From positions 1-13,629 of the forward strand of contig DAOVRJ010000038.1 in assembly GCA_030628225.1 (NCBI GenBank): a stretch of 13,629 nt of DNA, given 5' to 3'. The translations under genes were made by a program, and so were the position numbers. The notes beneath the pieces were generated by a model that did not search any database, was not told the origin of the DNA, and was given only the letters and a program-made list of their open reading frames with translations. This document shows positions 616 to 12,025 of this stretch, in pieces (position 1 is the stretch's first letter; each line of letters begins with the position of its first letter). Origin of the DNA: Candidatus Zixiibacteriota bacterium (GTDB lineage Bacteria; SM23-81).

Positions 616-3600
616 CTACTCGATTGGCCATGAAGGAATCAACTCGTCTATCGCGGTCATCAAACGAATTGTTTCCTTAAGAGCAACGACGATTTTCTGG
701 TAGTGCATCAGATCATCAAAAGACAGCTTGCGACTCTTGCGGTCCTTAAGCCATTTTTGTAGCACCTGGTAGCCACCGATCTGAAATTCCCACACCTCAG
801 GCTCAATCCCTTCAAAATACTGAGTTTTGTTGATGAATACTCGGCCTGGAACAGCTTTGCCAGACTCAGTCTGACGCGGCTCGGTGTAGCGAACTTTCTC
901 TACCTCATTGGAGCCGGTTTCGGGAAAGCTGGTGATGAGCTTGTCGAGCTTGGGAGATTCCATCAGGTGCAGGGCGATCAGTTCTTCGCCCTTGTTTGCC
1001 AACTTCTTGAATAGATTCAGGTTCGAAGTCAAAGGCAGCCGCGGGAAGTCGATTTTAAGGAGCTCGGCATACCGTTCCCGGTAGGTGGGGGAGTGGAAGA
1101 CGGCGTAGGCATAGTGGAGGATATCCTCTGGCCCAAAGGTCTTTTTCAAGTCCCCCTTACCGTCTGGCACGAAATCGAGACTAAGTTTTTCTTTGACGGT
1201 AGCAATGAACTTGGATGAGAGATTGGGCTCACGGGTTACTTCTTCCGTAGCGAGGAAGGTACCCGCGGTGTCTTCGGGGGTGGTGTAGAGGTAGAGCGGG
1301 AAATAGTAATTGTACTCCCGAGTATGGAGAGATATAGCATTACCGTCGCCAATGAACTTTGTAGCGTAGATATGCCTGAATCCAGCCTCTCTTTGCTGGC
1401 GACAAGTGACTAGAGCAAGGTTTTCTCGTAGCATATGCCTCATTACTTCAAAGCGAGAACGTTCGATAACTGCGTCATAATAGAAGATTGCTCGAATGTC
1501 AAAAGGTCTGTAAAAACAACAGGTGAAACATTTTTGCCAGTCTTTGTTTTTTCCCAGGATCTCACGGGCCCGGGTCACGGTCCAACCTTTTTTGTCCTTC
1601 AGCCCGAATCGTTCTCGTACTTCATCATATGAAAAGGTCTTATCTTGAAAAGCAGCAATTCGTGACCGCAAATGATCTTCCTCAAAGTCAATGACGAAAT
1701 GGTCACGATGAGTTTTAATACCACTTGAGTTAATCGGGAAAATATCCGTAACGCTCCATCCCTTCCCGTATTCTTTCTGCAAATCAAATGCCTTGGGTAC
1801 AAAGAAGAAGTAAGGAGAATCCAGTTCAAGTGTTTGCCATTCAGTAGTGCTGACGTCATCCTCTAGCAGATAGCGATACTTCCCCACTCTCAAGCCCCAG
1901 AGGTCGGCGTGCTTAACCTTGGCTGGACTGTTGCCCTCCGGTGTTTTCACAAAAAGAGCAATCGCCACTCCCTGCCGGATGTCGAAGACATTCTCATCTG
2001 GCCCTCCATCGGGTGTAGTTTCTCCCATCAGTGCGTTACCATGCAAGTTTAGCACATAGATCTCATCGAAAGTCTTCAGCAATTCCTCCCTCATTCCACG
2101 ATGGATCAGCCCAGAAAGGTACGAATGGTTGGTAATCATTCCGATTACACCGTAACCAGTGCGTTCTATACGATCATGAGCGAAGCGGATGAACTTGATG
2201 TAGTCGTCGGACAAAGGCTGGATGTTGCGTTCGCCTCGGACAGCGGTTTTGTAACGATCCATCAGTTGCTTGATGTGCTTGCCCTTATTGGCCGAGCTGA
2301 CCGAATATGGTGGATTGCCTAAAACCACCATGATGGGTTTGTCCCGCTTGACCTCTGCTGCAGCGTTGGCTTCATCTGTGATGAATCTGGCAAAACCCAG
2401 CATTTCTGTTTTGGTGATTGCTTCCTCTAATGAATTGGTCAAGTAGATACCCAGACGCTGGTCACCGGCAAAGTCGTAGCCCGTTTCCTGGAGTTGAATG
2501 CCAAGTTTCATATGAGCCACAGCGTAGGGGGCCATTAGAAGCTCGAAGCCGAAGATGCGGGGAAGGAGATACTTCTCCACGTACTCGTTCCAGGCTCCTC
2601 CCTGTTCCATCTCCATCAAGGTGTCGTGGATTTGCTGAATGACGAAGTAGAGAAATGTAGCTGTGCCGACTGCCGGATCAAGGATGAATGTTTTCATGTC
2701 CGCCAAGCCTAATGGACGGTTGAAGCGATTCTTGAGTATATGATCGATGGAACGAACGATGTAGGATACTACCGGCTCGGGGGTATAATAGACGCCACGT
2801 TTAACTCTCTCCTTCGGATTATAAGCGGCAAGAAATGTTTCGTAGAAATGGATTACCGGATCTTGCTGTCGCGTGCGCTTCCCGAAATCCCGCAAGATCT
2901 CCGCCATGTCCGCCCGAGCCAGAAGGTAAGCAAGATTGTCCACCTGCCAGGCAATGCGATCATCCAGGTCCGGGCCGGCGATTTCATTGAACAGCCTGCG
3001 CAGAAAGGGATTGGTTTTGGGCAGATTCCAGGCTGCCTTCTCTCGGGTAAAGGATTGCCCTGTGGGAACACGGAGACGGGCGGCAAATAGGCCATAAGCG
3101 ATGGTCTGGGCGTACATGTCGGCAAACTGGGCCGGTGTCAGTTCGGGAATCAACGCCTCTCGGAAAGCTTTCAATTGGGTGTGCAGCGCGCCCTCTTCGC
3201 TCTCGCACTTGAAGGTTTCTTCGATGAGATTGCAGATCATGCGGGCTAAAGCGGCCATCCGCTGAGCTAATTCTTTCGGAGTGCCAACGGTAGGAACTTC
3301 CTCGGCGAAGAACTTCTGTAGCAGATCGTGGACTTCCTCAATGCCGTTTTTGGATCGCTTGATCTTTCCATCCCTGGTGACGGTTGCCAGTCGAGCAGTT
3401 TGGCGATGTTCGCCCCACACGTACCATCGGAATTCGAGATAATCGGTTAGGATCAGGTTGTGCAGACCATCACGGTAGCGAGCCAATTGCTCGGATCGCT
3501 CCTCTTTGTCCAGATTTATGCCGATGTCTTTCGCCTCGATACTGCCGATGGGTGTATTAGCGCGGGTGAGGATGTAATCTGGTGCGCCGCACTCAACGCG

Positions 3601-3750
3601 CTTGGGCTCATTAGTGGCCAGGACTCCGTCGCCTATGGCCTCCAACAAGGTCTTCAGGGCAGGACGATGAGTGTGCTCCGTCGCCGCGCCTGTGGAGAGG
3701 TTTTTCTGAAGGTTTTTTATATACTCGTTAAAATGACTGATATTATCCAT
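616..3750 (-). CDS. single-chain restriction-modification enzyme (type IIG / helicase-less type ISP-like)
   Basis: A 1044-residue protein predicted to cut DNA and methylate adenine N6 at the same recognition site. The N-terminus shows a PD-(D/E)xK nuclease signature, D58...E72-A-K74. A helical connector (about 150-310) follows. The methylase core has motif X-like GVYYTPEPVVSYIV (319-332), SAM-binding motif I ILDPAVGTATFLY (356-368) and catalytic motif IV GNPPY (478-482). The C-terminal region contains YRPFDIRA and ends in a segment with GGYQVLQKWLKDRK (from about 992), both typical of type ISP specificity domains. No Walker A or DEAD-box helicase motif is seen, unlike LlaGI/LlaBIII, which are much longer. 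The ATG at 3750 is preceded in frame by a TGA two codons upstream, so the start is firm as to maximum length. The ribosome binding site is weak. No separate methylase or specificity gene is adjacent, so it would act alone. Recognition sequence and activity cannot be read from the sequence. Confidence 0.9.
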   Translation of the reverse strand: MDNISHFNEYIKNLQKNLSTGAATEHTHRPALKTLLEAIGDGVLATNEPKRVECGAPDYILTRANTPIGSIEAKDIGINLDKEERSEQLARYRDGLHNLILTDYLEFRWYVWGEHRQTARLATVTRDGKIKRSKNGIEEVHDLLQKFFAEEVPTVGTPKELAQRMAALARMICNLIEETFKCESEEGALHTQLKAFREALIPELTPAQFADMYAQTIAYGLFAARLRVPTGQSFTREKAAWNLPKTNPFLRRLFNEIAGPDLDDRIAWQVDNLAYLLARADMAEILRDFGKRTRQQDPVIHFYETFLAAYNPKERVKRGVYYTPEPVVSYIVRSIDHILKNRFNRPLGLADMKTFILDPAVGTATFLYFVIQQIHDTLMEMEQGGAWNEYVEKYLLPRIFGFELLMAPYAVAHMKLGIQLQETGYDFAGDQRLGIYLTNSLEEAITKTEMLGFARFITDEANAAAEVKRDKPIMVVLGNPPYSVSSANKGKHIKQLMDRYKTAVRGERNIQPLSDDYIKFIRFAHDRIERTGYGVIGMITNHSYLSGLIHRGMREELLKTFDEIYVLNLHGNALMGETTPDGGPDENVFDIRQGVAIALFVKTPEGNSPAKVKHADLWGLRVGKYRYLLEDDVSTTEWQTLELDSPYFFFVPKAFDLQKEYGKGWSVTDIFPINSSGIKTHRDHFVIDFEEDHLRSRIAAFQDKTFSYDEVRERFGLKDKKGWTVTRAREILGKNKDWQKCFTCCFYRPFDIRAIFYYDAVIERSRFEVMRHMLRENLALVTCRQQREAGFRHIYATKFIGDGNAISLHTREYNYYFPLYLYTTPEDTAGTFLATEEVTREPNLSSKFIATVKEKLSLDFVPDGKGDLKKTFGPEDILHYAYAVFHSPTYRERYAELLKIDFPRLPLTSNLNLFKKLANKGEELIALHLMESPKLDKLITSFPETGSNEVEKVRYTEPRQTESGKAVPGRVFINKTQYFEGIEPEVWEFQIGGYQVLQKWLKDRKSRKLSFDDLMHYQKIVVALKETIRLMTAIDELIPSWPIE

Positions 3751-8892: not shown

Positions 8893-9897
8893 TCAACAGT
8901 GAGATAGTTTATGGAGACGGGCGTATTCCTCGCCCAGGATCTTCCACACCCGTTCAGGGTCTTTCGACCTGAGCCAGGCCATGTAGCCGGTTCCCCGGTA
9001 GCTCCAGGCGGCGATATTTCGTATGCCCGCCCCATAAGCGGTGCGGATGGCCGTGCGGATGTACTCTTCCGTCTCCGGGGTGATCAGAAAATTCTGCACC
9101 CAGATCTGGCCCTCCTTGCCATGTTCTCTGGCCAGCTTGACGATCTTCTCAGCATAGTTTGCCACGAAAGGTTCCACCGCTATCTTTTTCGACCACCAGT
9201 AAGGGTCGGTGCCCAGAATATCCAGCGTCTCGATGCTGGCCAGCCGGTTCCACAGGGCCAGCTCTTTTTCTTCGTCCTCCTGGTCGGGCAAAAAACAGAC
9301 GGCGTTTTTGCATCCCTCTGATCTGGCCAGATGGCAGAGCTCTTCCAGGAAGTCCATCACGGAGTCGTGGCGAAAGCGGCGCACCTCATCGGTGAGCTCC
9401 CCGGGCAGAGGATAGCCGAACTGCTGCCGAAACTTATGTCCACAGGCATCACAGCGGCAGGCCCACGGCGCATCTTTTCCTTTTGCATCGGCCTTGATGA
9501 AGTGCGGCTCGTCCCAGAACAGCACGTCTGCCCCCATCTGGACGGCTGATCGGGTCCAGTGACTCATATACTCCCGGAAGGCCGGCTGGTTGAAGCAGGC
9601 TGCCGGGAGAGAGCTGCCGTCGGAGAGGATCTGCCGGGCCGGCAGATGTTCCGAGGCGAAGCGGGAATATGCCTCCCCGCCGAACACCCGGCCCACGCCC
9701 CAGGGATCCAGCCAGACCTCCAGGCCGGCCTGGTGGGAGATCTTCACGATCTGTTTGATGGTGCCGTGGTAATATTGCAGATCGTTCTCCGAGCAGGTGT
9801 GAACCACGAAGGTGCAGTGGTTTCCGGCGATCTCCGCCATATCCTCCTCGACGTGCCGGGGAATTCTGTTGCCATAGTAGCTAACGCCGGTTTTCAT
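8893..9897 (-). CDS. glycoside-hydrolase-like TIM-barrel protein, function unknown
   Basis: A 334-residue protein with no signal peptide, so probably cytoplasmic. A series of hydrophobic strands spaced as in a (beta/alpha)8 barrel is visible: TFVVHTCS (29-36), GLEVWLDPWGVG (58-69), DVLFWDEP (124-131), NAVCFLPD (198-205), DILGTDPY (226-233), QIWVQNFLI (264-272) and IAAWSYRG (295-302). WDEPHF (128-133) places an acid at a strand end, as in many glycoside hydrolases, and is followed by CRCDAC (C147, C149, C152). A Cys cluster after the catalytic strand is seen in several glycoside-hydrolase-like families. The substrate is unknown and catalysis is inferred. Its ATG overlaps the stop of the exported HEAT-like gene as ATGA, with GAGGTGA about ten bases upstream. 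Its own stop overlaps a possible TTG start of endonuclease IV. Confidence 0.75.
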   Translation of the reverse strand: MKTGVSYYGNRIPRHVEEDMAEIAGNHCTFVVHTCSENDLQYYHGTIKQIVKISHQAGLEVWLDPWGVGRVFGGEAYSRFASEHLPARQILSDGSSLPAACFNQPAFREYMSHWTRSAVQMGADVLFWDEPHFIKADAKGKDAPWACRCDACGHKFRQQFGYPLPGELTDEVRRFRHDSVMDFLEELCHLARSEGCKNAVCFLPDQEDEEKELALWNRLASIETLDILGTDPYWWSKKIAVEPFVANYAEKIVKLAREHGKEGQIWVQNFLITPETEEYIRTAIRTAYGAGIRNIAAWSYRGTGYMAWLRSKDPERVWKILGEEYARLHKLSHC

Positions 9898-10703
9898 GGG
9901 ATCTGCTCACCTCTGGCAACGGCCGCCGTGTCTTCGGGGGCGAACTGTTCCTGCGCATCCGGGAAAGCGATGGTCCATTTCTCACCCTCACGTTCCCACC
10001 AGGCCAGACACCCGGTTTTCTCTGCATCCTCGGGCATTGCCCCCTCACTCAGCTCTGAGATGGCAGGCAGCAGAGCGATCTCGCCGTCGGCCACCTTCTC
10101 CACCATCGCCGGCAGGGCCACGACGCCCAGGTCCACCAGCTTCCGGTAGGCTCCCTCGGTCTCATTCGGTTCCTTTTGAGCCTTCCACTCCTGATAGAGC
10201 CTCTCGAACTCCTCCGGGGTCTCCTGGATTTTTTCCCGCCACCATCTGAGCCACAGGATGTTGATATCCGGATGGCTTTTGCCCGGCGCGATGTCCGGGA
10301 ATTCCTCCACCATCCAGAGGAGCTGGCCGTCGATCTCCTCCTGCCGGACATGGAACTTCTTCTTGGTGATGGCCATCAGGGCGTGATGCAGCAGGCGTCC
10401 CTCGATGGGAGCTTCCTCGATCCTCTCCATGAGGTAGGGCAGGGTAGGGATGCCCAGCCGGATGATCTGTTGGAAGGGCTCATTGTTCACGAAGACATCG
10501 CCCCGGGAGTGTCGCCACACCTCCGGACGCTGGCAGTACTTGAGCCAGGCCTGGTGCTTTTCCTGGAAGAGAGCTCTCGTTGAGTCTGGTGTGCTTTCCA
10601 CCTCCTGCGCACAGGGTGGCGAGCTGACCATGACAACCAGAATGAACAGCCAGCAGAAGAGCCATCGTCCAAACATCTGCCATTGTGTCGGTTTTATGTG
10701 CAT
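9894..10703 (-). CDS. exported protein with two HEAT-like repeat units
   Basis: A 269-residue protein, not recognised as a named family. A signal peptide is likely: W/F/L/V-rich segment 14-27, then SSPPCAQ, with cleavage near residue 32; there is no proper lipobox. The mature part contains two related units. One has IIRLGIPTLPYLMERI (about 80-95) followed by LRWWREKI (about 152-159); the other has KLVDLGVVALPAMVEKV (188-204) followed by LAWWEREG (about 233-240). The LG...LP helical pair followed by a WW-E segment resembles exported HEAT-repeat proteins of environmental bacteria. A binding rather than catalytic role is likely. The start at 10703 has only GGAA upstream; a second ATG at 10676 would spoil the basic N-terminus. 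Its start lies one base after the stop of a Cys-rich open frame, and its end overlaps the next gene by ATGA. Confidence 0.7.
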   Translation of the reverse strand: MHIKPTQWQMFGRWLFCWLFILVVMVSSPPCAQEVESTPDSTRALFQEKHQAWLKYCQRPEVWRHSRGDVFVNNEPFQQIIRLGIPTLPYLMERIEEAPIEGRLLHHALMAITKKKFHVRQEEIDGQLLWMVEEFPDIAPGKSHPDINILWLRWWREKIQETPEEFERLYQEWKAQKEPNETEGAYRKLVDLGVVALPAMVEKVADGEIALLPAISELSEGAMPEDAEKTGCLAWWEREGEKWTIAFPDAQEQFAPEDTAAVARGEQIP

Positions 10704-10704
10704 T

Positions 10705-10809
10705 TTATGATTTCCAACAGGTCAGTTTGTGTTCACACCAGTGGCACATCTTGAAATCGCCGGAGACGATGATGATCCGGCCGTATCTGGGACAATGCCC
10801 TTTATTCTT
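10705..10809 (-). pseudogene. start-less zinc-ribbon-like reading frame (small gene or remnant)
   Basis: On the minus strand an open frame of 34 codons ends with TAA at 10705, one base before the ATG of the HEAT-like gene. It reads KGHCPRYGRIIIVSGD followed by FKMCHWCEHKLTCWKS. The pattern is CPxYG...CHWC...C, resembling a treble-clef / zinc ribbon whose second Cys is replaced by Tyr. Most of its codons end in G or C, as in neighbouring genes, which supports coding ancestry. No ATG, GTG or TTG precedes the Cys-rich part: the frame is closed by TAA at 10810-10812. Further upstream in the same frame is an ATG at 10905, separated by another TAA at 10870-10872. It could be a decayed gene, a sequencing error, or a small protein with an unusual start. 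Confidence 0.4.
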
Positions 10810-10971
10810 TTACGCTAAGAGCCAACCCTCAACCTTCTTGACACTGATTCCGGAGAACGATGCTGCTTTTTAACCTCTTCGCTCATCTGCGCGCTTTTTC
10901 GACATCTCTTTCCCAGACGATTGCCAAGAAATATCAAACCTTCCTCTCGACTGCCCAAACAATATCACACT

Positions 10972-11050
10972 CATGGGGAAATGTCAAGGGAAAATCCGTT
11001 TTTCCGCTTATCGGGAGAACAGAATTGTGTTGACCACATGGGGAAAATGT
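10972..11050. repeat. two CATGGGGAAA(A)TGT words upstream of murQ
   Basis: CATGGGGAAATGT (10972-10984) and CATGGGGAAAATGT (11037-11050) are 65 bases apart. Each has CAT...ATG symmetry. The second is embedded in a longer dyad, CCACAT (11034-11039) / ATGTGG (11047-11052), that lies between the -35 and -10 boxes of the proposed murQ promoter. Two copies at this spacing look like paired operators for a dimeric regulator. This is inference. Confidence 0.4.
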
Positions 11051-11058
11051 GGTAAATT
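11030..11058 (+). promoter_or_regulatory. sigma-70-like promoter of the murQ operon
   Basis: TTGACC (11030-11035) matches five of six -35 consensus positions. It is separated by exactly 17 bases from TAAATT (11053-11058), four of six at -10. Transcription would begin near 11065 and give a leader of about 40 bases. A dyad occupies the spacer. Confidence 0.5.
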
Positions 11059-11104
11059 AAGCAGAGAATTTACCAGTCATTCCCTGCTTTTGAGGATTTT
11101 AGAG

Positions 11105-12025
11105 ATGAGCAAAACCATTTTTAACGAGATAAAAAAATTGGTCACGGAACAGCGCAACCCGGCCACCATGGATATCGACACCAAGTCGGCCCTGGAGATC
11201 GTCCAGTTGATCAATGCCCAGGACCACAAGATCGCCCCCGTGGTCAAGGAGGAGCTGCCCTATGTCGCCCGGGCGGTGGAGATCATCGTCGAGGCCTTCA
11301 AGAAAGGGGGCCGGCTGATCTACATAGGGGCCGGCACCAGCGGACGGTTGGGGGTCCTGGATGCCTCCGAGTGTCCGCCCACCTTCGGGGTTCCGCCGGA
11401 GATGGTCCAGGGGATCATCGCCGGGGGCTACGGAGCCCTGGTGCGGGCCGTGGAGGGGGCGGAGGACCTGGCCGAGGATGCTGCCCGGGATCTGGCGGAG
11501 CGGGAGGTGACCGATAAAGATGTGATCTGCGGCCTGGCCGCCAGCCGGCGCACTCCCTATGTGGTGGCGGCGGTCAAGAGAGCCCACCAGATCGGGGCCA
11601 GGACCCTCTACATCACCTGCACGCCCCGGTCGGAGATCAACTTTCCGGTGGACGTGGCCATCTGCCCGGTGGTGGGGCCCGAGGTGGTCATGGGCTCCAC
11701 CCGGATGAAGTCGGCCACCGCCCAGAAGATGGTCCTGAACATGCTGACCACCGCCGCCATGATACGGCTGGGCAAGGTCTACGGCAATATGATGGTGGAC
11801 CTGCAGATGACCAGCAAGAAGCTCCAGGAGCGCTCCAAATGGGTGGTGATGATGGTCACCGGCGTCGATTACGAGAAAGCCGCCCAGGTGCTGGCAGAGG
11901 CCCGGGGACATGTGAAGACGGCCATCGTCATGATCCTGGCCAAGATGGATGCCCATGAGGCCCGGGAGAGGCTTCAGGCCTCCGATGGCTTCGTCCGGGG
12001 GGCCATCGGGGGGGTGGAGAAATGA
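11105..12025 (+). CDS. murQ: N-acetylmuramic acid 6-phosphate etherase
   Basis: A 306-residue SIS-fold enzyme that removes the lactyl ether from MurNAc-6-phosphate to give GlcNAc-6-phosphate and D-lactate, a step of peptidoglycan sugar recycling in the cytoplasm. The family signature YIGAGTSGRLGVLDASECPP lies at 73-92. The two glutamates corresponding to E. coli E83 and E114 are E89 (ASEC) and E120 (EGAED), 31 residues apart as in E. coli. ASRRTPYVVAAV (146-157) and VGPEVVMGSTRMKSATAQK (190-208) are also typical. The ATG at 11105 is chosen because GAGG lies nine bases upstream, the promoter fits, and the product starts as the family does (MSKTIFNEIKKLVTEQRNP). The open frame upstream to 10973 is not family sequence. 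The stop overlaps the next gene as ATGA, giving an operon with the SpoIID-domain gene. Confidence 0.95.
   Translation: MSKTIFNEIKKLVTEQRNPATMDIDTKSALEIVQLINAQDHKIAPVVKEELPYVARAVEIIVEAFKKGGRLIYIGAGTSGRLGVLDASECPPTFGVPPEMVQGIIAGGYGALVRAVEGAEDLAEDAARDLAEREVTDKDVICGLAASRRTPYVVAAVKRAHQIGARTLYITCTPRSEINFPVDVAICPVVGPEVVMGSTRMKSATAQKMVLNMLTTAAMIRLGKVYGNMMVDLQMTSKKLQERSKWVVMMVTGVDYEKAAQVLAEARGHVKTAIVMILAKMDAHEARERLQASDGFVRGAIGGVEK

Follow-up and report, generated by a model that had tools for sequence, protein, structure and literature searches.

A start-less, cysteine-rich frame in a Zixiibacteriota genome is most probably the 3' stump of a truncated DUF3795 gene

The window analyzed here, a stretch of 13,629 nucleotides from a Candidatus Zixiibacteriota bacterium, contains a short cysteine-rich frame of 34 codons which adjoins an operon on the same strand and has the divergent murQ gene on its other side (Table 1). 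Its closing TAA (10707-10705) was separated by one base from the ATG of the next gene at 10703, and 22 of the 34 codons ended in G or C; the preliminary description of this DNA was correct in both respects. It had also stated that the frame has no canonical start. No start codon was found ahead of the first Cys pair, and the frame has no usable one; an in-frame ATG does occur at 10749 (codon 21, K-M-CHWC), where initiation would yield only 14 residues with the second Cys pair. Besides, with Tyr in place of the second Cys, the frame did not provide four zinc ligands. The peptide was present once in its own genome. A Pfam search with the 34 residues gave no match, and an Rfam scan of the window revealed no RNA family. 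Distant genomes gave weak matches to these residues (E >0.02), which were attributed to chance or to zinc ribbons in unrelated proteins and discarded. Among the genomes searched, a single further member of the family turned up, candidate division Zixibacteria bacterium SM23_81 (G001; contig C87, LJUY01000016.1), which provided the sole collinear relative of the locus and is referred to below as SM23_81.

Table 1. Positions of features around the cysteine-rich frame, numbered from the first letter of the window.
Feature	Position	Strand	Basis or comparison
Conserved 334-aa gene; SM23_81 orthologue (72%) lies directly after the DUF3795 gene	8893..9897	-	Sequence comparison
Next gene, 269 aa, HEAT-like according to the preliminary description	9894..10703	-	Absent in SM23_81
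Probable DUF3795 gene stump, C-terminal zinc ribbon KNKGHCPRYGRIIIVSGDFKMCHWCEHKLTCWKS*	10705..10809	-	Translation, homology to SM23_81, profile search
In-frame TAA at the conserved Gln position (WLxEQ) of intact relatives	10810..10812	-	Alignment
Reading-frame remnant 5' of the TAA, ISVKKVEGWLLA, matching IKEKGLEEWLKEQ of relatives	10813..10848	-	Alignment, profile search, DNA alignment
Putative deletion junction, 71 bp versus 1417 bp in SM23_81	10838..10908	.	DNA alignment
Promoter-like TTGACA-17-TATTGT, TG before second hexamer, conserved in SM23_81	10959..10987	-	Motif, DNA alignment
murQ (N-acetylmuramic acid 6-phosphate etherase), divergent neighbor	11105..12025	+	84% identical, collinear in SM23_81

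The HEAT-like protein encoded directly after the frame showed an apparent signal peptide and no Pfam or NCBIfam match, and a single distant relative (27%) was found among the 193 genomes searched. Its gene begins at the TAAAATG string that ends the frame; the string is kept in SM23_81, where its ATG starts no more than MIPY and a stop. The 334-aa protein also had no Pfam or NCBIfam family. Its relatives were found in Omnitrophota, Cloacimonadota and one archaeal genome (37-49% identity), and it looks like a member of an uncharacterized conserved family. Between murQ and the operon, the region of the divergent promoters (10909-11105) was well conserved in the two genera; it lies in an aligned block of 344 columns with 76% identity and carried promoter-like sites on both strands. 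The promoter-like site listed in Table 1 would transcribe the frame and the genes after it. Elsewhere in the window (616-3750), a 1044-aa protein weakly matched adenine-specific DNA methyltransferases of the BREX and MADS defence systems and is probably a restriction-modification-type enzyme.

The preliminary description had proposed a search for homologues upstream of the same HEAT-like gene in related genomes. We found the peptide again in SM23_81 (61% identity, E 2.2e-6), in the corresponding position of the collinear locus, next to the 334-aa gene rather than to a HEAT-like gene. There, the peptide ends a longer reading (MAVDKNLMGRCGLYCGICEIYRAYKD...FSFCYDCGEYDTCPKH...LSEQGQKWRCPECGRPIIVSYDFDECHWCGIKL, a single frame with three stops), which, when read through, matched Pfam DUF3795 (PF12675, E 2e-13). 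Intact genes that combine a DUF3795 core with a C-terminal zinc ribbon were found in G002 (same phylum), G105 and many other genomes. Intact relatives from other bacteria, one of them from the same phylum, were approximately 142-168 aa long and had the tail WLxEQxxKWxCPxCG...CxxCG. The alignment ran through the TAA of the window (VERWLEEQAQKWRCPSCG against VEGWLLA*KNKGHCPRYG); that is, homology started upstream of the frame and crossed the TAA that seemed to open it, which stands in place of the conserved Gln of relatives. Similarly, a profile built from ten intact relatives only, with the window and SM23_81 kept out, had the frame as its top match in a six-frame reading of the window (E ~0.01, versus ~1.4 for the next match) and aligned it from SFSGISVKKVEGWLLA across the stop to the end. 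This profile match and the recurrence of the peptide in SM23_81 show that the frame is more than a chance reading.

The elements of the ribbon motif were present in order but with losses, 7 of the 11 conserved tail columns being retained compared with 8-11 in intact relatives, and the collinearity with the DUF3795 reading in SM23_81 points to common descent. The DUF3795 core (CGxYCGxC...CxGC...C) was not found upstream of the tail: the profile matched with its positions 101-148 only, and a local DNA alignment of the upstream stretch with SM23_81 detected no core remnant (score 16, versus 24-29 for the best shuffles). When one intact relative was compared with solved structures, no match was better than E 0.03, and the weak ones obtained included rubredoxins. 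On the strength of these alignments, the frame appears to be not a small protein but the last fifth of a larger gene, whose full-length product would have combined DUF3795 with the zinc ribbon in ~160 aa. We regard it as a remnant, not a working member, of this kind, which lacks a start codon because the front of the larger gene is missing.

Comparison of the two loci suggested how the front was lost. The order in SM23_81 is murQ, the shared divergent promoter, a dihydroorotate-dehydrogenase-like gene, the DUF3795 gene and then the downstream genes of the window. Both sides were collinear, with a SpoIID-domain gene and murQ on one side and, on the other, the 334-aa gene, deoxyribonuclease IV (76%), a 175-aa gene (73%) and an aminotransferase (88%). 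At the DNA level, two blocks of the window aligned with SM23_81: 10909-11247 (E 2e-62), which covers the beginning of murQ together with the divergent promoter region, and 10701-10837 (E 2e-13), containing the tail. They are 71 bp apart in the window and 1417 bp apart in SM23_81, where the intervening DNA comprises the dihydroorotate-dehydrogenase-like gene (PRK07565 subfamily) and the first ~3/4 of the DUF3795 gene. No DNA similarity to the missing SM23_81 sequence was detected in the 71 bp. Also, the genome of the window showed no orthologue of the dihydroorotate-dehydrogenase-like gene elsewhere, only paralogues at 24-25%, and no full copy of DUF3795 plus ribbon. The difference in spacing therefore suggests that a deletion of ~1.35 kb took the first gene and most of DUF3795. 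A deletion in the lineage of the window, and not an insertion in the other, appears to be the simplest account of the direction of change, because an insertion in the SM23_81 lineage would leave no partial gene here.

Thus, we consider it highly probable (about 0.94) that the start-less frame is the 3' stump of a DUF3795 gene, i.e., the scar of a deletion in an ordinary broken gene. The ancestral operon, which can still be seen in SM23_81, probably consisted of a promoter followed by the dihydroorotate-dehydrogenase-like gene, DUF3795 with its C-terminal zinc ribbon, the 334-aa gene and deoxyribonuclease IV. The proposed deletion would have fallen just downstream of the shared promoter, and the stump would have no start because the start was deleted. 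What remains, with its stop and its substitutions of structural residues, is presumably untranslated or meaningless. Since the promoter-like site is kept in SM23_81, the stump may still be transcribed as an operon leader. Decay had been one of the options in the preliminary description, and it agrees with the 5' truncation by deletion, the stop at a conserved Gln and the changes at conserved W, C and G positions.

The residues and substitution rates of the stump were also examined. Four tail residues were lost in the window: W to G, the second C to Y, the G after the last Cys to E, and another G to K. The Tyr, already pointed out as odd, replaces a Cys that is present in 10 of 10 intact relatives used and in SM23_81. 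Between the window and SM23_81, the tail had a pN of 0.335 and a pS of 0.48, and the neighboring gene a pN of 0.165 (34-codon stretches: mean 0.16, maximum 0.28) and a pS of 0.56; thus, the pN of the tail was above that of every 34-codon stretch of its neighbor, at similar pS. The dN/dS was ~0.58 for the whole tail and 0.38 in its 27-codon core. These values below 1, together with the fact that the tail is still recognizable, suggest that selection probably acted on it during part of the divergence. The pattern is one of relaxed constraint, not of its full absence across the divergence, which is as much as 34 codons allow, and it is what one would expect of a gene that died only some way down the branch.

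A dN/dS below 1 would also be consistent with a functional small zinc-ribbon protein that heads the operon and starts in an unusual way, either at a non-AUG codon (ATC at 10776, 10773 or 10770) or by a frameshift from an upstream ORF, and the frame is indeed open, one base from the next ATG and downstream of a conserved promoter-like site. Such a protein is very unlikely, given that homology runs upstream across the TAA, that the second Cys zinc ligand, the W and the G after the last Cys have been lost, and that the ATC starts would drop the first Cys pair. Moreover, in the relatives examined the piece was never a free protein but the C-terminal end of one of ~160 aa, which argues against the small regulatory or metal-binding protein suggested earlier; for a start by an unusual route we found no supporting evidence. 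It may also be asked whether assembly or sequencing errors produced the stop and the missing part of a gene that is in fact intact, as the genome of the window is a draft in 306 contigs. However, both flanks were collinear with SM23_81, neither the missing gene nor a full DUF3795 plus ribbon copy occurred on the other contigs, and the residue losses within the stump would need several more errors, so that the probability of such an artefact is almost negligible.

The DUF3795 gene of SM23_81 (C87:9669-10154, corresponding to L003:1114-1599) showed no frameshift and was full length, with three in-frame stops (one TAA and two TAG). None was common to the two genomes: SM23_81 has Gln at the TAA of the window, and the window has Trp at a TAG of SM23_81. 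Pseudogenization inherited unchanged from a common ancestor was rejected, as the stops differ, and DUF3795 was therefore broken independently in the two lineages, unless an earlier lesion, not seen here, came before both. The stops aside, the SM23_81 copy looked well conserved: it kept 26 of 29 conserved columns and scored 111 bits against the profile, compared with 78-178 for intact relatives. Under neutral decay, three stops with so little other damage had a probability of about 0.015 to 0.10; the value depends on whether the two further changes of this copy in conserved columns are counted as damage. This is somewhat unexpected under neutral decay but too little to claim readthrough, and draft sequence or recent loss are ordinary accounts of these stops. 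That in-frame stops in the DUF3795 genes of this locus are tolerated via readthrough or bypass, the stump of the window being a second case, is hardly credible.

As a deletion scar, the stump leaves the picture of gene expression unchanged. It suggests caution with start-less, Cys-rich frames beside operons, which can turn out to be 3' ends of truncated genes, and it adds evidence that two genera of one family are losing this DUF3795 gene via different mutations. Among the closest systems, the 172-aa open frame of G002 (L043) and the 176-aa frame of G105 (L042) share the tail motif, its order and its spacing with the window. In contrast to these, the window has the tail only, with the core deleted, a stop for Gln, Tyr for the second Cys and Gly for W; also, the G002 and G105 copies are not beside the neighboring genes of the window. 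The SM23_81 copy shares with the window the 61% identical tail, the promoter block and the flanking murQ and 334-aa genes, but it differs in being full length with three stops, in having the dihydroorotate-dehydrogenase-like gene in front, and in lacking the HEAT-like gene behind.
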